A stretch of 64,000 bases of DNA from positions 432,299 through 496,298 of the forward strand of contig QHZD01000018.1 in the NCBI GenBank assembly GCA_003225315.1. The letters are read 5' to 3'. Below the pieces are notes generated by a model that was not told where the DNA came from, did not search any database, and worked only from the letters and a program-made list of their open reading frames with translations. Positions 7,524-16,610 of the stretch are shown here, in pieces. The stretch's first letter is position 1, and each line of letters starts with the position of its first letter. The translations under genes and the position numbers were made by a program. Origin of the DNA: Acidobacteriota bacterium. GTDB taxonomy: Bacteria; Acidobacteriota; Terriglobia; Acidiferrales; UBA7541.

Positions 7524-7554
7524 TTTCCAACTTCCAATTTCTATTTTCTGAATC

Positions 7555-7631
7555 TGGTGGGGCTGGGGAGATTCGAACTCCCGACAAACGGTTTAGGAAA
7601 CTGCTGCTCTATCCATCTGAGCTACAGCCCC
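7555..7631 (-). tRNA. tRNA-Arg (anticodon CCT), CCA encoded
   Basis: GGGGCTG/CAGCCCC acceptor, GCTC/GAGC D-stem, TTCCTAA anticodon loop, GGGAG-TTCGAAT-CTCCC T-arm, encoded CCA. Confidence 0.93.
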
Positions 7632-7726
7632 GCTCTTCCATTGTAATGCTTCCCGGCCATTTTCGCTCCGCCCGAGTTTATCCATTGTCAAAGCGCCCTG
7701 GTTGTCAAAGGGCCTGCTCGTCAAAA

Positions 7727-8515
7727 CTATGGTGCCGCCGCTCCCGGCGTAGTGGGCTGCGGATTCGATTTCGGCGCAGGTGTAATCTTGCTGATGCGCA
7801 AACTCCGAAAGATCGTCGGCCAATATTCTCGCAGCGCGTTACTTGCCGTGTACAAGCCGATCCGTATCCCGTAGCGCTGGAACGTCCGGCCCGCTGTTTG
7901 TTCTTTCACCGGCAAATAGCTATTTGCCAGGCTCTCCGCCAGCAGCGGTCCCAGCATTCCCGCCCAATTCGCCGCGTCTTTTCCTTCATCCGTGCGCGCC
8001 ACCACGATGCGGCTCAGCGCGTAGCCCACGCGATGCCCAAACCCGCCGTGCAGCGTCACGAAGTAGCGCGGGTCGCGGTGCAGCGCGGACGAAATCACAA
8101 ACGTTCCGAAAAAATTCGTCGATGCCGCCGTAGCCATCGAAGTGCCGAAACGCTTTCCGTATCCAGCCATTCCCTGGCCATAGCCGGCCAGCGAATTCTG
8201 CGCTTGCCCGATTCCGGCGCCCACCGCGGAACTGAGAAGACGCGAAGGAGCAATGCTCTGATCCGCGAAAAGTTCGAACTTCTGCTTCACGCTCAGCGGG
8301 CCGGCGCTGGTGGCGATATCGGGAAAGAAAATCGAGCGCCGTTCCAGAACTTCGATGGTCGTTTGGACACGATTTTGCCGCTTCTGCGCGCTTTCCTGTT
8401 TTGCGACGGGCGCATCGGGAAGGTCTTGCGGCTTCGGCTGCTGCTGCGCCGACGCCGTTGCGGCGACGCCCACCAGGAATGCCATTAGTCGCACAGCCGA
8501 TGAGCCGTGGCGCAT
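7727..8515 (-). CDS. Secreted hypothetical protein
   Basis: 262 aa with signal peptide (MAFLVGVAATASAQQQ). Co-directional with the next gene. Confidence 0.65.
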   Translation of the reverse strand: MRHGSSAVRLMAFLVGVAATASAQQQPKPQDLPDAPVAKQESAQKRQNRVQTTIEVLERRSIFFPDIATSAGPLSVKQKFELFADQSIAPSRLLSSAVGAGIGQAQNSLAGYGQGMAGYGKRFGTSMATAASTNFFGTFVISSALHRDPRYFVTLHGGFGHRVGYALSRIVVARTDEGKDAANWAGMLGPLLAESLANSYLPVKEQTAGRTFQRYGIRIGLYTASNALREYWPTIFRSLRISKITPAPKSNPQPTTPGAAAP

Positions 8516-8578
8516 TCCTTCATCCTAACATGAACGCAAAATTTCCCTCTTTCCACGTCGCCCCACCCCTCTGCGTTC

Positions 8579-9310
8579 TCAGGCGCTCAACGACCGCGCG
8601 ATGCGGAATCCATAATCCGCGTACTGAAATTCCGGGGGAATGCTGGACCGCGCCGCCGTGCGTGTCACCTTAATATGATGGCGCCAGGAGCCGCCCCGCG
8701 AAGCCTTGCGCGTGCCGCTCTTTGGCCCCTGCGGATTTCGCTCCGGCGAATGCGCGTAGTAGCCGTCGTCATACCAGTCGGAGCACCATTCATGGACGTT
8801 CTCGCCCACGTTGTAGAGCCCGTAAGCGTTCGGCTTATACAGCCCCACGGGCTCCGGCCCCAGCTTCCATCGTTTGTCGTAATCGGGAACTGTTTCCGGA
8901 GGCGCGTCTCCCCACGGGTACAGAAAACTTTCTTGGCCGCCGCGCGCCGCGCGTTCCCATTCGGCTTCGGTCGGCAAGCGATAGCGTTTGCCGGTCATTC
9001 CGCTCAGCCACTCGCAGTAGCTCGCCGCTTCGTGCCAGGACATGGCCACGACGGGCATTTGCGGATCATTGAAATTCGCGTCATTCCAGTGCGGCGGCGG
9101 AGCGCCCTTGGTGGCTGCAAGAAAGCGCGCGTACTCCGCGTTCGTAGCCTGGTAAATCGCCATCTCGAACGAATCCACCCACACGCGGTGCACGGGCTTT
9201 TCGTCGTCGCGCCCGGTCTCGCAGCCCATCGCGAACCAGCCCTCCGCGATAGGCTCCATCATCGGCTCGATCGCGCCGACCTGGGCTGCACTCTTGGACG
9301 TGGCCACCAT
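8579..9310 (-). CDS. SUMF1/formylglycine-generating-enzyme-like domain protein
   Basis: EGWFAMGCETGRDDEKPVHRV, YRLPTEAEWERAARGG, NVHEWCSDWY, SRGGSWRHH, YGFRIARS. Start chosen at MVATSK. Confidence 0.85.
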   Translation of the reverse strand: MVATSKSAAQVGAIEPMMEPIAEGWFAMGCETGRDDEKPVHRVWVDSFEMAIYQATNAEYARFLAATKGAPPPHWNDANFNDPQMPVVAMSWHEAASYCEWLSGMTGKRYRLPTEAEWERAARGGQESFLYPWGDAPPETVPDYDKRWKLGPEPVGLYKPNAYGLYNVGENVHEWCSDWYDDGYYAHSPERNPQGPKSGTRKASRGGSWRHHIKVTRTAARSSIPPEFQYADYGFRIARSLSA

Positions 9311-9389
9311 ATGCTCCGATCCAAGTCTCCCATGATTATAGCGGCCGATCGGCAGTTGAAATGAGAAATGGTTAGTCAACAGAGCCCCT

Positions 9390-9495
9390 CCCCCACCCGG
9401 GTGGTTTTTCGCAAAGAGTGCGGAACCGCTTGAAAACAAAAGAGTTGAGTTTTGCAGGCGTGCAAAAGAGTGCGCAAGAATATGAAAACAAAGAC
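9390..9495. repeat. Dispersed intergenic repeat, copy A
   Basis: cccccacccgggtg...gcaaagagtgcggaac...acaaaagagttgagttttg...gcaaaagagtgcgcaaga closely matches 41665..41770. Confidence 0.85.
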
Positions 9496-9611
9496 GATAA
9501 GATGAAAACGGGCGGTCCATATTCTCGACACGGTCGGGATCTTCGACTGACAGGCTGAAAGAACGCGGGACTTACGGGGCAGGCGGCCGTGGAACTGCTG
9601 ATTCACGGGGA

Positions 9612-9640
9612 ATGGTAACACAAAGCGTTAACTTTGTCAA
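9612..9640 (-). promoter_or_regulatory. Sigma70-like promoter TTGACA-N17-TACCAT
   Basis: Minus strand -35 at 9635-9640, -10 at 9612-9617. Confidence 0.55.
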
Positions 9641-9947
9641 GAAATGACTCACTAGTACTGGGACTATCATTTGGAAATCGAACCTGGAAAATCGAAATTG
9701 AGGGAGCCTTTCCCGACAGGGTCGGGGCAGACGGGACAAGCAGGGATTCCGTGTTGGGATTTGAGGCGGAAGGGAGATTGAAACGGAGGGGTTTAGTGCG
9801 GCGCACCTGAGGGATGGTTGTAAGTTAGAGACGAATTCAAAATCCGTACCATTTGGTGACAGTCGAGGGCTTGAACAACGCGCCCGTGCAAGCGTCACAG
9901 ACTCATCTGTTTTCCAGTACTTTTGCACAGCGTTGAGGTGTAACCAG

Positions 9948-9975
9948 TTGACCCTATGTCAGATACTGTTATCCT
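9948..9975 (+). promoter_or_regulatory. Candidate promoter TTGACC-N16-TATCCT upstream of the DHH cassette
   Basis: -35 at 9948-9953, -10 at 9970-9975. Confidence 0.35.
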
Positions 9976-10030
9976 TTTGAGGAAAGAGAACTAGACCGCT
10001 GGAGCTTGCTTAGGACGTGGGATTAGATAC

Positions 10031-11020
10031 ATGAGGCGAGAAGGAACTCTGTATCTTCATTTTCCCTGCTTTGACGGGCTTGTGTCGGCTGTACTAGCAT
10101 CGGACTTCCTTGAACAGAACGGATGGAAATTCAATCGTCGATTCTGTCCAGTCAACTATCATCTGAGACCCACTTGGATATCGAGCCACTTGCGCCCTCC
10201 ATGCGCGGTAGTCGATTTTCTTTATCATTCTGATGCACAGTTTTGGGCGGATCATCACTCGACCACTTTTCTCTCTGGAGAAATGCGAGCGGAATACGAG
10301 AGTAGAAAAAGCCTTTGGGTCCAATACGACAGCCAAGTTGGCTCGTGCGCTCTTTTGCTCTGGAAGAATCTGTCGAGTTGGTTTGTTTCGAAACATAGCA
10401 ACTATCAGGAGATGGTGTATTGGGCGGATAAAATCGATTCTGCTCGGTATCTGAACGTGCAAGAAGCAATCTTGGGAGATAGTCCAGCTCTGAAGATTTA
10501 CCGTAGCCTGATCCTTCGAAGTGACACTGAGTTCTGCGTCCTCCTAATAAGAGCGTTGCGCAGGAAGAGCCTAGCTGAAGTTGCGAGGCTTCCCGAAATT
10601 CTTAACAAATCCGAAGAAGTGCGCTCCTTGAATGAGGCTGGCCTAAAGCGTTTTCGTAATTATGCGCATCTTGAATTCGGTGACATCGTTGTTTTCGATC
10701 TCGACGCGAGCCCTAACGATATCGTTAGCCGGTATGCTCCCTTTTACTTCTTCCCCAAAGCTCGCTATTCCATCGGAATGACGCGCCGTGAAGGCACCGC
10801 GAAAATAACGGCGATGAGGAATCCCTGGCTTGAATTCGAAAGTGTTCCTCTGGGAGCCATATTCGAGCGCTACGGAGGTGGCGGTCATCAACGCGTCGCT
10901 TCAGTCATTTTGACGAAGATGGATGCGCACAAAAGTGATACCGTGCTTAGCGAATTGGTTTCTGAGATTCAAAAGCAAGACTCGACGTATTTTCGGCCGA
11001 TTCGTCAGGCACTGGGATGA
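10031..11020 (+). CDS. DHH/DHHA1-superfamily phosphoesterase-like protein
   Basis: Motif I-like HFPCFDGLVSAVLA, motif III-like FWADHHST, DHHA1-like FERYGGGGHQRVAS. Confidence 0.75.
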   Translation: MRREGTLYLHFPCFDGLVSAVLASDFLEQNGWKFNRRFCPVNYHLRPTWISSHLRPPCAVVDFLYHSDAQFWADHHSTTFLSGEMRAEYESRKSLWVQYDSQVGSCALLLWKNLSSWFVSKHSNYQEMVYWADKIDSARYLNVQEAILGDSPALKIYRSLILRSDTEFCVLLIRALRRKSLAEVARLPEILNKSEEVRSLNEAGLKRFRNYAHLEFGDIVVFDLDASPNDIVSRYAPFYFFPKARYSIGMTRREGTAKITAMRNPWLEFESVPLGAIFERYGGGGHQRVASVILTKMDAHKSDTVLSELVSEIQKQDSTYFRPIRQALG

Positions 11021-11922
11021 TTGAAAAATTCAACTTTTACGATGTCTATGGTTATTTCCTACCCGGCTTGTCATTGTTGGGCTTGATTTTCCTTCCGTTT
11101 GGCCTCGTGAAGCATCAATGGCCAGCGACAGAACTGAGTTCCGCACTCGGGGCTATAGTTTTCGCGTATATATTGGGCCACGTTATCCAGACTATCGCTT
11201 TTAGAGCTTTCCCCTCAGCGCTTCTCGATTCTCTCGGAAACCGGAGATACCCCTCTGAACTTTTCCTGGACCACAAATACCCTGAGTTCTCGGAAGAATT
11301 TAAAGGTAGCCTCGCCAAAGTTGTGAAGGATGCCTTCGACATAGATCTGGCCATAGAAAAAGCACCGGCAAAGCGCGATGATCCTGAATTCGCACCAATT
11401 TCGCGCAGGCGACAGGATGCATTCCTTCTGAGTCGAGGTGTCCTAATAAGAGAGAAGATTGCAGCGTATGCGGAACAATCTCAAGGTATGTATACCTTAA
11501 TGCGGGGACTAGCAACCTCTTTTGTGTTGGGATTTGCGTATTTTGCAGGATGGTCTCTGTCCCTTTTCAAGGGTGAGTGCCTGACAGCATTGGCCTTGGT
11601 GCTGATTGTTTTGGGCTTGTTGAGCACCCTCGTGGTTGCAGCATGCTTTCTGCGATCGAAGCCTCAGGTGCCAATTTGGGTAGATAGAATTAGTCTTATG
11701 GGGCTGATGCTGACTTCGTTGGGAGTCGGATACCTGTTCGGGCTGAAAACCGTAGAGTCACCTCTACAAGCTAGAGCGCTTGGTGTAGTGTCAATCGTTA
11801 CAATCATCTTTGCCCTTCGATGTTTTGGTTCGTACAAAAGTTTTGCGCGGGATTTCGCAAAGGCAGTTTGGCGTGACTTCGCGGGCCATCGGCTGGTTCC
11901 TCCCGCAGCTGGTCACGGCTAG
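11017..11922 (+). CDS. Polytopic membrane protein translationally coupled to the DHH phosphoesterase
   Basis: ATGA overlap with the upstream gene. Hydrophobic segments YDVYGYFLPGLSLLGLIFLPFG, ALGAIVFAYILGHVIQ, SFVLGFAYFAGWSL, LALVLIVLGLLSTLVVAACF, LMLTSLGVGYLFGL, VVSIVTIIFALRC. Confidence 0.75.
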   Translation: MIEKFNFYDVYGYFLPGLSLLGLIFLPFGLVKHQWPATELSSALGAIVFAYILGHVIQTIAFRAFPSALLDSLGNRRYPSELFLDHKYPEFSEEFKGSLAKVVKDAFDIDLAIEKAPAKRDDPEFAPISRRRQDAFLLSRGVLIREKIAAYAEQSQGMYTLMRGLATSFVLGFAYFAGWSLSLFKGECLTALALVLIVLGLLSTLVVAACFLRSKPQVPIWVDRISLMGLMLTSLGVGYLFGLKTVESPLQARALGVVSIVTIIFALRCFGSYKSFARDFAKAVWRDFAGHRLVPPAAGHG

Positions 11923-12156
11923 AGGTCGCTCGGATACTCGACACGTGCGATTCACTCTGACGGGGCCAGATAATAGACGGGCTTAAGTGGAAGCAGAAGC
12001 TTCTGGGATTCAGCCCGCGAGGAACACGGGGAGTCCCACAAAGCGGGGCAAAGCCCGGCGCTACGCAAGATGGCATCGGCGCCAGCGTCGTCCGACCGTG
12101 CTAACATCGTGCCTCCGACCTAATCTGCGCTTGTTCCTACCGGACCGGAGGCTGCC

Positions 12157-13881
12157 GTGAATAAGACATTGAAGATTGTGTTGATTGTGGTGGGTGTGCT
12201 GGTTGTGGTGATGCTTGTGGCGCCGTTTTTGATCCCCGTGAACCAGTTCCGGCCCATCATTGAAGAGAAAGCTTCGGCGGCGGTGGGACGCAAAGTGCAA
12301 CTGGGCAATATTAGCCTCTCGCTGATCAGCGGATCGCTTTCCGCGGAAAACCTCTCCATCGGCGACGACCCGAAGTTCAGCTCTGCTCCGTTCCTGACGG
12401 CAAAGTCGCTGGATGTGGGCGTGGAAATGATGCCGCTGATTCTCTCGAAGACGCTGAATGTTACCGGCGTGACGATTGCCAGTCCTAAAGTGACCTTGCT
12501 GCATAACGGGGCCGGACAATGGAACTATTCTTCGCTGGGCGGAGCCGCCGCGAAAGCGGAGGCCAAGAAGGCGCCTGCGGAAAAGCCTTCGCCTACGGCA
12601 GGCGCGGCGGAAGTTTCCATCAAGAAACTTACGCTGAGCGACGGCAGCATCATCGTGGGCTCGACGAATTCGCAGAAGCGCAGCACGTATGACCACGTCA
12701 ACGTGACGGCTTCGGCTGTTTCGCTGACTTCCAAGTTTCCGGTTACGGTCGCAGCCGATCTGCCCGCCGGCGGCAAACTCAAGCTGGACGGGACGTTCGG
12801 CCCGGTAGATCAAGCGGACACCGCGCTGACTCCGCTGAACGCCAAGCTGAACGTTGCGGGATTGAATCTTGCTTCCACGGGATTCCTCGATCCTTCCATG
12901 GGCCTTGGCGGGATTGTGGACCTGGATGCCAATCTGTCCTCGCAAGGCGGCGAAGCGCAGACCAAAGGCAACGCCAAACTGTCCAAGGCGCTGTTGGTTG
13001 CCGGCGGTTCACCGGCCGGGGTTCCCGTGACGGTGAATTTCGCTACGAAGTACAATCTGCGCAAGGACGCCGGAGTGCTCAATCCGTCGACGCTCAATAT
13101 CGGCAGCGCCGCGGCGCATCTCTCCGGCACGTTTCAGTCGCCCGGAGACGAAACCATCGTCAATGCCAAGGTCGAAGGCGAGAACATGCCCGCCCGCGAC
13201 CTGGAAGCGTTTCTCCCCGCACTGGGCATTCACCTTCCGAAAGGCGCTTCGCTGGCCGCCGGCGCGCTCAACACAAACCTGAATATCACGGGGCCGACCA
13301 ACAAACTGATCACCACGGGCACAGTCGGTTTGTATAACGCGAAACTGGCGGGCTTTGACCTGGGATCGCGGATGTCCACGATTTCCGCGCTGACCGGCTT
13401 GAAAACCGGCCAGGATTTGGACATCGAAAAAATCACCACCAATTTGCACATGGCTCCTACCGGGCTGGAAGCTCAGAATTTCCTGGCGGCGATTCCCGCG
13501 CTCGGCACGCTGGTCGGCGCGGGAACGCTGGATGCGAAAAATAATCTGGACTTCAAAATGGCGGCGACGCTGGCGAACACCGCGACTTACACGTCGTCAG
13601 GAGGCGCGCCGGCGTCGGGAATCGGAGGCCTCCTGGGCGCTATCGGCGGAGGCAAGGGCGGGTGCAAGGGAGCGACGATTCCTTTTCAGATTCACGGCAC
13701 GACGGCTGACCCGAAGTTTGTACCGGACATCGGCGGGATTGCGGCTAGCTTGCTCCAGTCGCAGTTGGGCTGCGCCGGTGGGACGGCTCCCGGAGCTAAA
13801 ACCAATTTGCAGCAGCAAACGCAAAATCCGGCGGACGCGATTAATGCGTTGGGGGAATTGTTTAAGAAGAAAAAGCCTTGA
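12157..13881 (+). CDS. AsmA-family protein
   Basis: N-terminal TM helix then PFLIPVNQFRPIIEEKASAAVGRKVQLGNISLS and a C-terminal AsmA-like repeat region. Confidence 0.8.
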   Translation: MNKTLKIVLIVVGVLVVVMLVAPFLIPVNQFRPIIEEKASAAVGRKVQLGNISLSLISGSLSAENLSIGDDPKFSSAPFLTAKSLDVGVEMMPLILSKTLNVTGVTIASPKVTLLHNGAGQWNYSSLGGAAAKAEAKKAPAEKPSPTAGAAEVSIKKLTLSDGSIIVGSTNSQKRSTYDHVNVTASAVSLTSKFPVTVAADLPAGGKLKLDGTFGPVDQADTALTPLNAKLNVAGLNLASTGFLDPSMGLGGIVDLDANLSSQGGEAQTKGNAKLSKALLVAGGSPAGVPVTVNFATKYNLRKDAGVLNPSTLNIGSAAAHLSGTFQSPGDETIVNAKVEGENMPARDLEAFLPALGIHLPKGASLAAGALNTNLNITGPTNKLITTGTVGLYNAKLAGFDLGSRMSTISALTGLKTGQDLDIEKITTNLHMAPTGLEAQNFLAAIPALGTLVGAGTLDAKNNLDFKMAATLANTATYTSSGGAPASGIGGLLGAIGGGKGGCKGATIPFQIHGTTADPKFVPDIGGIAASLLQSQLGCAGGTAPGAKTNLQQQTQNPADAINALGELFKKKKP

Positions 13882-13952
13882 GGCAGAAAACTAGAAAGTA
13901 GAAACTAGAAATTAGGAATTCAAAACAGAAACAGAAACCGTAAAGAGATTCT

Positions 13953-16610
13953 TCATTCGTAACGGAGGGCGACGATGGGGTCGACACGCATCGCGCGGCG
14001 CGCTGGGATCCAGCAAGCCAAGCAGCCGACGATCAGAATGAGCGCGGCGCTTCCGGAGAACGTCCAGGGATCGCTGGACTTCACGCCGTAGAGTTCGCTG
14101 GCGATGACGCGGACGGCTCCGAGCGCCGCGACGGAGCCGATGACGGCTCCGAATGCAACGAGAGTCAATCCTTGCCGCAGGACCATGTGCAACACGTCGG
14201 CGCGCGCGGCGCCTAACGCCATGCGCACGCCGATTTCCTGGGTACGGCGCGCCACAGAATACGAAACGACGCCGTAAACTCCCAGCAACGCCAGCATCAA
14301 GCCCACACCAGCAAATACTCCGAGAAGAACGGTGTGCATGCGCTGATCGCCAACGGATTCCGCAATTGTCTCCGTCAGAGTCATGACGTGGCGCACGGGT
14401 TGGTCAGGATATCCGGCCCAGATTTGCCGCGAAATCGTTCCGGCCAGCGCATCGGGATTTGCTTGCGTGCGGACGATCAGATGATGCGAACCCACGCCCC
14501 ACTGGAAGAGAGCGAGATAAAACTCCGGCGTGGCCTCATCCTGTATCTCGACATCGCGGGCATTGGCGACGACGCCGACAATCTCGTTCCACTGCGGAGT
14601 TCCCTTGCCGTCCGTGGAAACGCTCATGCGTTTTCCAACGATGTCCAGCGTGCCCCAATATTTGCGGGCCATCGCTTCGTTGACCATGACGACTCTTTGC
14701 GCGCCTTGCTGGTCCTGCTCGGCGAACTCGCGGCCGCGCACGAGAGAAATGCCCAGCATGCGGAAATACTCCGGTGAGATGTACCGCCCGATGACGCTCT
14801 CCGTTACGGCGGATTGTTCGGGAAGCGCGCCTTCCAGTTGCAAGCCGGAATGCTCGTACATCATTCCGTCCAAGATGCCGTGATCGGAGGCGACAACGTC
14901 TTCGACTCCCGGCAGGCGGCGCACGCGCGCGAGCATGTCTTTCAAACGCACGATCTGGCCGGTGGCATTAGCGTCGGAATCCTCGCGGTTCCACTGCGGC
15001 GGCTGCGGCAAGTCGAATGTGAGGAGACGGGCGGAGCGGAAGCCGGGATTCTGGTGAAGTAAATGAGCGAGCGTCTGCATCATGAGGGTCGAGCCGATGA
15101 GCAGAATGAAAGCGAGGGCTACTTCCACAACGACGAGCGCATTGCCAAATCGCGAAGTGCCGGTGACACTTCCCGCGGTTCCTTCTTTCAGAGCATCGCT
15201 TGGAGCCATGCGCGCGGCACGGCGCGCCGGTGCGAGACCGAAGACAACTCCTGAAACCAGAGAACTCGCGAGCGCGAACCAGAGTAAGGTCCAATCGGGA
15301 GTTATTTCGGCGAGACGTGGTGTGCCGCTCGGGGCAATGGCGCGAAAAACCTGGACGATTCCCGCAGCCAGGGCAATTCCCACCGCACCGCCGAGCAATG
15401 CCAAGAGGCAGCTTTCGACCAGGCCTTGACGCTGCAGTCTTCCGGGCGAGGCGCCCAGCGCGGCGCGCACGGCCATTTCGCGGTTTCTGCCCCAGCTTCG
15501 CGCCATCAACAGACTCGTCAAGTTGGCGCAAGCGATCAGAAGGACGAAGGTGGCTGCTGCGAGCAGAACGAGGTAACTTTGCCGCGCATCGTGGACGCGA
15601 CTCTCCAGGAGCGGCTCTGCGGAAAGTTTGTATCCCTTGCCGAGAGCCGGATCTAATTTCGCGATCCGCTGCGCGATGGTAGCGAGTTCCGCTTGCAGAG
15701 TTTCGAGCCTCTCTCCTTTCCGCAATCTGCCGAGGACTTGGAACCTGAAGAACTTTTGATTTTGCTCGATTTCCGACGTCAATGAGAGCGGCAACCAAAT
15801 TTCGGACCTTTCTGGAAACGCAAAACCTTTGGCCGCGACCCCAACGATGGTGTAGACCTCTTTGTCCAGAATTAGTTTTCGGCCAATCACGCCGGAATCT
15901 GTTGCAAAACGAGTGCGCCAGAGAGCATCGCTGATGACCGCTACGCGGTTCTGTCCGGGCTGATGATCCTGTTCGGAGAGCAACCGCCCTTGCTGCGCGT
16001 AGCCTCCCAGTTCTTCGAAGAATCCGCTGGAGACACCCGTTGCGCGCAGCACTTCCGGCTGGTCCACACCGGTCAACGTTCTGTCTGTGGCCCAGAAGGC
16101 CGCTGTCTCCTCCAACATAGTGGCTTGCGAGCGAACTTCCTGGAAAGCAGGCCAGGTCAGAGCGAGCGTGAAGTTGGGGAACATAGCCGTTTTGGTATGG
16201 AAGGCGACGATTCGCGCAGAGTCTTTGTACGGCAGCGGACGCAACACCATGGCATTCACGATGCTGAAAATGGCGGTGTTCGCGCCGATGCCGAGGGCCA
16301 GCGTGAGGGCCGCGACGGCGGTGAAGCCGGGATTCTTGCGGAGCATGCGGAAGGCGAAACGCAAGTCCTGGAAAAGTGTTTCGAGAAGAGGAAGACCGCG
16401 GCGGTCGCGGTAGATTTCTTTCGTTTGCTCGATGCCCCCGAGTTTGATGAGGGCCTGGCGATATGCTTCTGCGGGGCTCATGCCGGCACGGAGATTGTCT
16501 TCGATGTGCATTTGGAGATGGCTTTCCATCTCCACCGAAAAGTCCCGATCTTGCCGCGCCTTGCGGAATAGTCCTTCGAATCGCAACAGCCATGCTCGGG
16601 TTTTTCTCAT
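13953..16610 (-). CDS. ADOP-type ABC transporter permease (MacB/FtsX-like)
   Basis: [55 protein letters not shown]-terminal [15 protein letters not shown]. Confidence 0.92.
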   Translation of the reverse strand: MRKTRAWLLRFEGLFRKARQDRDFSVEMESHLQMHIEDNLRAGMSPAEAYRQALIKLGGIEQTKEIYRDRRGLPLLETLFQDLRFAFRMLRKNPGFTAVAALTLALGIGANTAIFSIVNAMVLRPLPYKDSARIVAFHTKTAMFPNFTLALTWPAFQEVRSQATMLEETAAFWATDRTLTGVDQPEVLRATGVSSGFFEELGGYAQQGRLLSEQDHQPGQNRVAVISDALWRTRFATDSGVIGRKLILDKEVYTIVGVAAKGFAFPERSEIWLPLSLTSEIEQNQKFFRFQVLGRLRKGERLETLQAELATIAQRIAKLDPALGKGYKLSAEPLLESRVHDARQSYLVLLAAATFVLLIACANLTSLLMARSWGRNREMAVRAALGASPGRLQRQGLVESCLLALLGGAVGIALAAGIVQVFRAIAPSGTPRLAEITPDWTLLWFALASSLVSGVVFGLAPARRAARMAPSDALKEGTAGSVTGTSRFGNALVVVEVALAFILLIGSTLMMQTLAHLLHQNPGFRSARLLTFDLPQPPQWNREDSDANATGQIVRLKDMLARVRRLPGVEDVVASDHGILDGMMYEHSGLQLEGALPEQSAVTESVIGRYISPEYFRMLGISLVRGREFAEQDQQGAQRVVMVNEAMARKYWGTLDIVGKRMSVSTDGKGTPQWNEIVGVVANARDVEIQDEATPEFYLALFQWGVGSHHLIVRTQANPDALAGTISRQIWAGYPDQPVRHVMTLTETIAESVGDQRMHTVLLGVFAGVGLMLALLGVYGVVSYSVARRTQEIGVRMALGAARADVLHMVLRQGLTLVAFGAVIGSVAALGAVRVIASELYGVKSSDPWTFSGSAALILIVGCLACWIPARRAMRVDPIVALRYE

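Follow-up and report, generated by a model that had tools for sequence, protein, structure and literature searches.

Organisation of the locus

The window analysed here is a stretch of 64,000 nucleotides from an Acidobacteriota genome, in which two overlapping genes lie on the forward strand. The first (10031..11020, +) encodes a protein of 329 aa that is assigned to the DHH/DHHA1 phosphoesterase superfamily from its conserved motifs, an AlphaFold model and its best solved relative, PggH. The second (11017..11922, +) encodes a Csx27-family-like membrane protein of 301 aa, so named from a match to the PADLOC Csx27 profile. Both reading frames, and the ATGA stop/start overlap that couples them (11017..11020, +), are present as an earlier note on this DNA had described. 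The same overlap is seen in a second copy from the genus (L002/L040) and, with decayed partners, at loci L044 and L047. A possible sigma-70-type promoter, TTGACC-16-TATCCT (9948..9975, +), is located 55 bp upstream of the DHH gene; it is a consensus match only, and four such matches were found where 1.7 are expected by chance.

The pair differs in composition from its surroundings, with a GC content of 0.47–0.50 against 0.55–0.62 in the flanks and a GC3 of 0.49–0.51 against 0.57–0.735 in 20 other ORFs of the window, which bears out the impression, first gained by eye, that it is AT-richer than both flanks. The pair stands alone, flanked in the window by an FGE-sulfatase-like gene, an AsmA-family gene, MacB/FtsX-type permeases and amidohydrolases. 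No defence gene flanking the window copy was found with PADLOC, the sole match being a cross-match to an FtsX/LolE-type permease, and no messenger synthase adjoins the pair. The 720-bp non-coding stretch noted earlier depends on the start of the FGE-sulfatase gene, and becomes 510 bp if this ORF starts at 9520.

The DHH/DHHA1 enzyme

The HxPCxDG-, DHH- and GGGGHQ-like motifs reported for the first protein could all be located, as H10-x-P-C13-F-D15-G, D62, D74-H75-H76, D136 and GGGGH, and H10, D15, D62, D74-H75-H76, D136 and GGGGH do not vary among 14 aligned homologues. In motif I the position of the first Asp is taken by Cys13 in the window type and by Cys in the Acidobacteriota paralogue described below, and is Asp in a related family linked to rlmN-like genes.

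The AlphaFold model of the protein (pLDDT 90.9) has as its top match PggH, the pGpG-specific phosphodiesterase of Vibrio cholerae (7d62), by profile (E 2e-14), Foldseek (TM 0.70) and VIA (Z 24.8, the next being 19.1). The two share the DHH/DHHA1 fold over nearly the full length (283 residues, rmsd 3.3) at only 19% sequence identity. NrnA, the T. maritima PDE and RecJ match the fold with Z of ∼14–19. The window protein has no Pfam match, NCBIfam has none for the DHH family of the pair, and the housekeeping paralogue likewise escapes PF01368, the DHH profile of Pfam. DHHA1 is matched by 4 of 7 relatives, with a best E of 3e-4; a Pfam match of this kind marks a detection threshold and not a biological requirement.

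From its catalytic motifs and modelled fold, we assign the enzyme to the DHH/DHHA1 superfamily, the fold being a predicted one. Because PggH ranks best by all three methods, a small linear nucleotide is the most likely substrate, and the enzyme probably cuts small nucleotides.

The membrane protein is related to Csx27

In its AlphaFold2 model the membrane protein comprises two helices (residues 7–32 and 40–64), a soluble stretch, and four further helices (148–181, 187–213, 220–245 and 249–292). This matches the topology recognised earlier from the sequence, of about six helices with a soluble loop after the second. The model is of low confidence (pLDDT 65.6), and a fold search with it returned nothing significant. 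No Pfam family passes the cut-off for this protein, no transporter family matches it, so that the earlier possibility of a known transporter finds no backing, and no CorA match is found in Pfam, NCBIfam or PADLOC.

Kinship is found instead with Csx27, an accessory protein of type VI-B1 CRISPR systems. The PADLOC Csx27 profile matches the window protein with E 5e-6 and all 6 of the 6 family members (best 3.6e-8), and hhalign relates it to a Csx27-like protein of genome G256 (90.8%, E 1.2e-6). Compared with Csx27 as it is described in reviews citing Makarova et al. 2019, the window family shares an N-terminal F-x-[FYL]-Y-[DE]...PG segment and a conserved GH..Q in the second helix, but is longer, at ∼300 aa and about six helices against ∼200 aa and four. 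It also differs in having a DHH enzyme as partner and in falling below the NCBIfam Csx27 equivalog (NF040557, 20.2 bits against a curated cut-off of 65); among the neighbours no Cas13b was noticed. We conclude from these sequence comparisons that the protein belongs to a wider Csx27 family, with two extra helices. To our knowledge Csx27 has no established mechanism. The architecture first suggested for the locus, a nucleotide phosphodiesterase beside a polytopic membrane protein, is supported.

Conservation of the pair

The pair is found in nine Acidobacteriota genomes, including that of the window, and in one distant Planctomycetota genome, at unrelated sites; the gene order of the window recurs in all nine other genomes. 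At the nine Acidobacteriota loci and the Planctomycetota locus (L095) the genes are adjacent and on the same strand, with an overlap or a gap of at most ∼26 bp. Of 396 genomes sampled across the phylum, 3 have a match to the membrane protein, and in all three it lies directly behind a DHH gene. At L095 the DHH gene, 33% identical, precedes a membrane gene that shares the N-terminal segment and is interrupted by the end of the contig. A second Planctomycetota record (L045) has a DHH gene of the pair clade and no membrane partner in its draft genome, the contig ending ∼100 bp behind it.

The second copy in the genus, in G035 (L002/L040), occupies a different genomic site, keeps the ATGA overlap and encodes proteins 66% and 56% identical to those of the window. 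Between the window and this copy, its closest homologue, synonymous sites are saturated (pS 0.78–0.82) and pN is low (0.21–0.28), which indicates purifying selection on both genes. The further Acidobacteriota loci are those of G351, palsa_191 (L042), REEB315 (L043), Centralia_MAG_86 (L041), gp7 (L044, the same contig as G380), gp3 (L046) and bog_172 (L047). Of these nine copies, those of the window, G035, G351, L042 and L043 are intact and four are partly decayed: L041 has a frameshift in the membrane gene, L044 retains only the first residues of the membrane gene, both genes are broken in L046, and L047 combines a truncated DHH gene, which has lost the DHH motif, with an open membrane gene. 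As the decayed copies come from draft metagenome assemblies, single frameshifts could be errors. With one gene decayed beside an intact other in L041, L044 and L047, neither can be strictly dependent on the other.

Given a gene order kept in nine other genomes, and proteins still 56–66% identical where synonymous sites are saturated, the pattern is far beyond chance, and we conclude that the pair is a real two-gene cassette scattered in soil Acidobacteria. The earlier note had asked whether the two genes co-occur across distant genomes and near known defence genes. They do co-occur across distant genomes, at the nine Acidobacteriota loci and L095; proximity to defence genes is limited to the decayed copy L046, the only carrier locus near TIR and toxin-antitoxin (RelE) genes, most others lying among ordinary or housekeeping genes.

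An inserted and mobile cassette

An empty site is seen in G008, which a comparison of the downstream gene singles out as the nearest relative found within the genus (92% identity at the protein level). The flanks are collinear with the window, at 83.5% identity over 7553–9448 and 85.6% over 12090–13994, and the 2.64 kb between them (9449..12089, no strand), which contain the cassette, correspond in G008 to 0.65 kb (654 bp) of unrelated sequence with no similarity to either gene. No RNA families were found within this variable segment. The site in G008 is clean, and the window pair is an inserted cassette; the direction of change, gain in the window or loss in G008, is judged from the rarity of the pair. 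In G008 the site (L082 5250–6020) contains a different small minus-strand ORF (MKKKTEKRRRPDELRREYDLSKLKGG...), and the interval that separates the FGE-sulfatase gene from the AsmA gene may therefore be generally variable.

Close homologues of the window DHH gene occur in only 2 of 95 genomes of the order, a rarity that points to a mobile, patchily kept element, and neighbours are unrelated from one carrier site to the next. Together with the empty site and the GC3 shift, these observations support horizontal transfer of the pair.

A tRNA-Arg(CCT) does lie ∼2.4 kb away (7555–7631), as had been noted, but the G008 alignment runs unbroken from 7553 to 9448, so that the tRNA falls within the aligned flank and is not the insertion point. 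An imperfect 12-bp direct repeat, ATTCTCGACACG/ATACTCGACACG, brackets the cassette at 9521–9532 and 11934–11945; as the best flanking repeat (11/12) it was considered as a target-site duplication and rejected, being one of many at chance level. The window site yielded neither an integrase nor a convincing target duplication. Spread on phages or plasmids was likewise rejected, the pair having no match in IMG/VR, INPHARED or PLSDB.

Distinction from the housekeeping paralogue

A DHH gene related to that of the window is present in nearly all genomes of the order (83 of 95 match), as would be expected if the window gene were a vertically inherited housekeeping nanoRNase that happens to lie beside an unrelated transporter. 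The tree separates the two types. Window-type DHH genes form one clade (95/92), apart from the apparently housekeeping paralogue of the Acidobacteriota (100/100), and the window's own genome carries a paralogue of the housekeeping type elsewhere (G000:C9:272513-273433; L031 4439–5458), only 23% identical to the window copy and with the motifs CFDG, FDHHQSAFL and GGGGHPRVSA. The window copy is moreover absent from G008, and its neighbour shows no transporter-family match. Tree, separate paralogue and empty site rule out a vertical housekeeping origin, which the earlier note had left open, and we give this explanation next to no credence. PF01368 has no match anywhere in the window's genome (97.6% complete), which suggests that the usual RecJ/NrnA may be missing or divergent there.

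The sister clade of the window type is a Planctomycetota DHH family that lies beside rlmN-like genes, has no such membrane partner, and carries the motif I sequence H-R-D-F-D-G; the label "rlmN-like" is a reading of the downstream sequence and not a profile match. In this family (L102–L124) the DHH gene is followed directly by the rlmN-like gene in ∼20 Planctomycetota genomes, a conserved arrangement of which we know of no earlier description.

Comparison with NrN–CorA and a proposed function

The arrangement resembles that of NrN and CorA in Bacteroides fragilis (PMC10600005). NrN belongs to the DHH phosphodiesterases and is structurally closest to PggH and GdpP (PMC10600005), and CorA is the membrane effector of a SAM-AMP type III-B CRISPR system in which both proteins are needed for immunity (PMC10600005; PMC12255297); CorA has some toxicity when produced on its own, and this is relieved by NrN (PMC10600005). 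In each case the gene of a DHH-family phosphodiesterase, with PggH as its nearest structural match, stands beside that of a known or candidate membrane effector, and the proposed logic is that of a messenger-degrading enzyme and a gated membrane protein. The systems differ in that the window membrane protein is Csx27-like and, by the searches run, not a CorA, in that the window genome lacks Cas10 and a synthase adjacent to the pair, and in that the substrate of the window enzyme is only predicted.

No Cas10 palm match was found in the window's genome or in G035, and Cas10 occurs in 3 of 9 carriers, compared with 66 of the 297 genomes of the background. A link to type III CRISPR was rejected on this lack of enrichment, and any signal must have another source. 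Since no messenger synthase lies beside the pair, the signal would have to originate at another place in the cell or with the invader.

We tentatively favour, at somewhat less than an even chance, a mobile module in which the DHH phosphodiesterase tunes a Csx27-like membrane effector by removing its gating nucleotide, much as NrN does for CorA but without CRISPR. The enzyme, metal-dependent and co-translated with the effector, would hydrolyse a small linear (di)nucleotide or short oligonucleotide and so clear the molecule that gates its partner; the latter would be a channel or membrane-damaging effector, acting against phage or foreign DNA. A defence role is plausible, with indirect support from the relatedness of the membrane protein to Csx27 and from the analogy with NrN–CorA. 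Against the favoured module count the lack of an adjacent synthase and of a Cas10 link, the mostly housekeeping neighbourhoods, the decayed partners, the DHH gene of L045 that has no membrane partner in its draft genome, and the low-confidence membrane model. The more specific proposal of a stand-alone, CRISPR-independent immune module, its Csx27-type effector gated by a nucleotide signal that the infected cell or invader makes and the DHH partner clears, we regard as doubtful.

The main rival, although unlikely in our estimate, is a DNA channel coupled to an exonuclease, in which the Csx27-like protein would pass single-stranded DNA and a RecJ-like DHH enzyme degrade it, for the destruction or salvage of foreign DNA during uptake. 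Csx27-family proteins are predicted by Makarova et al. 2019, as cited in PMC7642515 and PMC8209922, to form channels for ssDNA with a link to the machinery of natural transformation. Among the fold matches, PggH is followed by RecJ and RecJ-Cdc45 (Z 15–19), and in G256 the Csx27-like protein has an MBL-fold-like protein on either side. The window enzyme, however, at 329 aa lacks the extra domains of RecJ and has a dinucleotide phosphodiesterase as its closest relative, and no competence genes are seen near the pair at the loci inspected.

Two other explanations dispense with protection of the host, and both seem to us improbable. The membrane protein could be a toxin neutralised by the DHH enzyme, the element maintaining itself by addiction; the translational coupling of two patchy, mobile genes, the relief of CorA toxicity by NrN (PMC10600005) and the RelE and TIR genes adjoining L046 would all suit such an element. 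The open membrane gene beside a truncated DHH gene in L047 would be forbidden under addiction unless that membrane protein is inactive, and weakens the case for strict addiction. Equally, the cassette might be a mobile regulator with no part in defence, its enzyme adjusting the breakdown products of c-di-GMP or c-di-AMP and its membrane protein serving as an envelope-stress sensor or transporter. PggH is described as acting on pGpG in c-di-GMP signalling (JBC 2022, as cited in PMC10600005), and ordinary genes are the neighbours at most sites, but the patchiness, repeated decay and Csx27 kinship fit conflict systems better than core signalling.

If the proposal of a stand-alone immune module is correct, nucleotide-gated membrane immunity would extend to the Csx27 family and give a hint of what Csx27 senses. 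As a CRISPR-free pair, the cassette offers a minimal system in which to ask whether proteins of the Csx27 type act as membrane effectors under nucleotide control or as channels for DNA, and it bears on whether a phosphodiesterase with a membrane effector recurs as a defence design beyond CRISPR. In the literature searched we found no description of a Csx27-like/DHH pairing; an earlier mention is possible, the key Csx27 family paper lying outside that search.

Other Csx27-like loci

Csx27-like proteins also occur in other settings. In G256 (L051 5608–12952) the Csx27-like protein and its two MBL-fold-like neighbours, one recognised by a weak Lactamase_B match and the other by eye only, lie near a GMT-wHTH protein and a probable Eco57I-like restriction enzyme, in what looks like a defence-rich region. 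In G553 (L096 814–2184) the gene of an LRAT-domain protein immediately precedes that of a short Csx27-like protein, and an integrase fragment lies still further upstream; on a Polymorphobacter plasmid a Csx27-like protein is surrounded by uncharacterised genes, with an integrase and HipA nearby. Judged from these MBL-fold, LRAT and other neighbours, the partners of Csx27-like proteins seem to include a variety of enzymes, the DHH protein among them.
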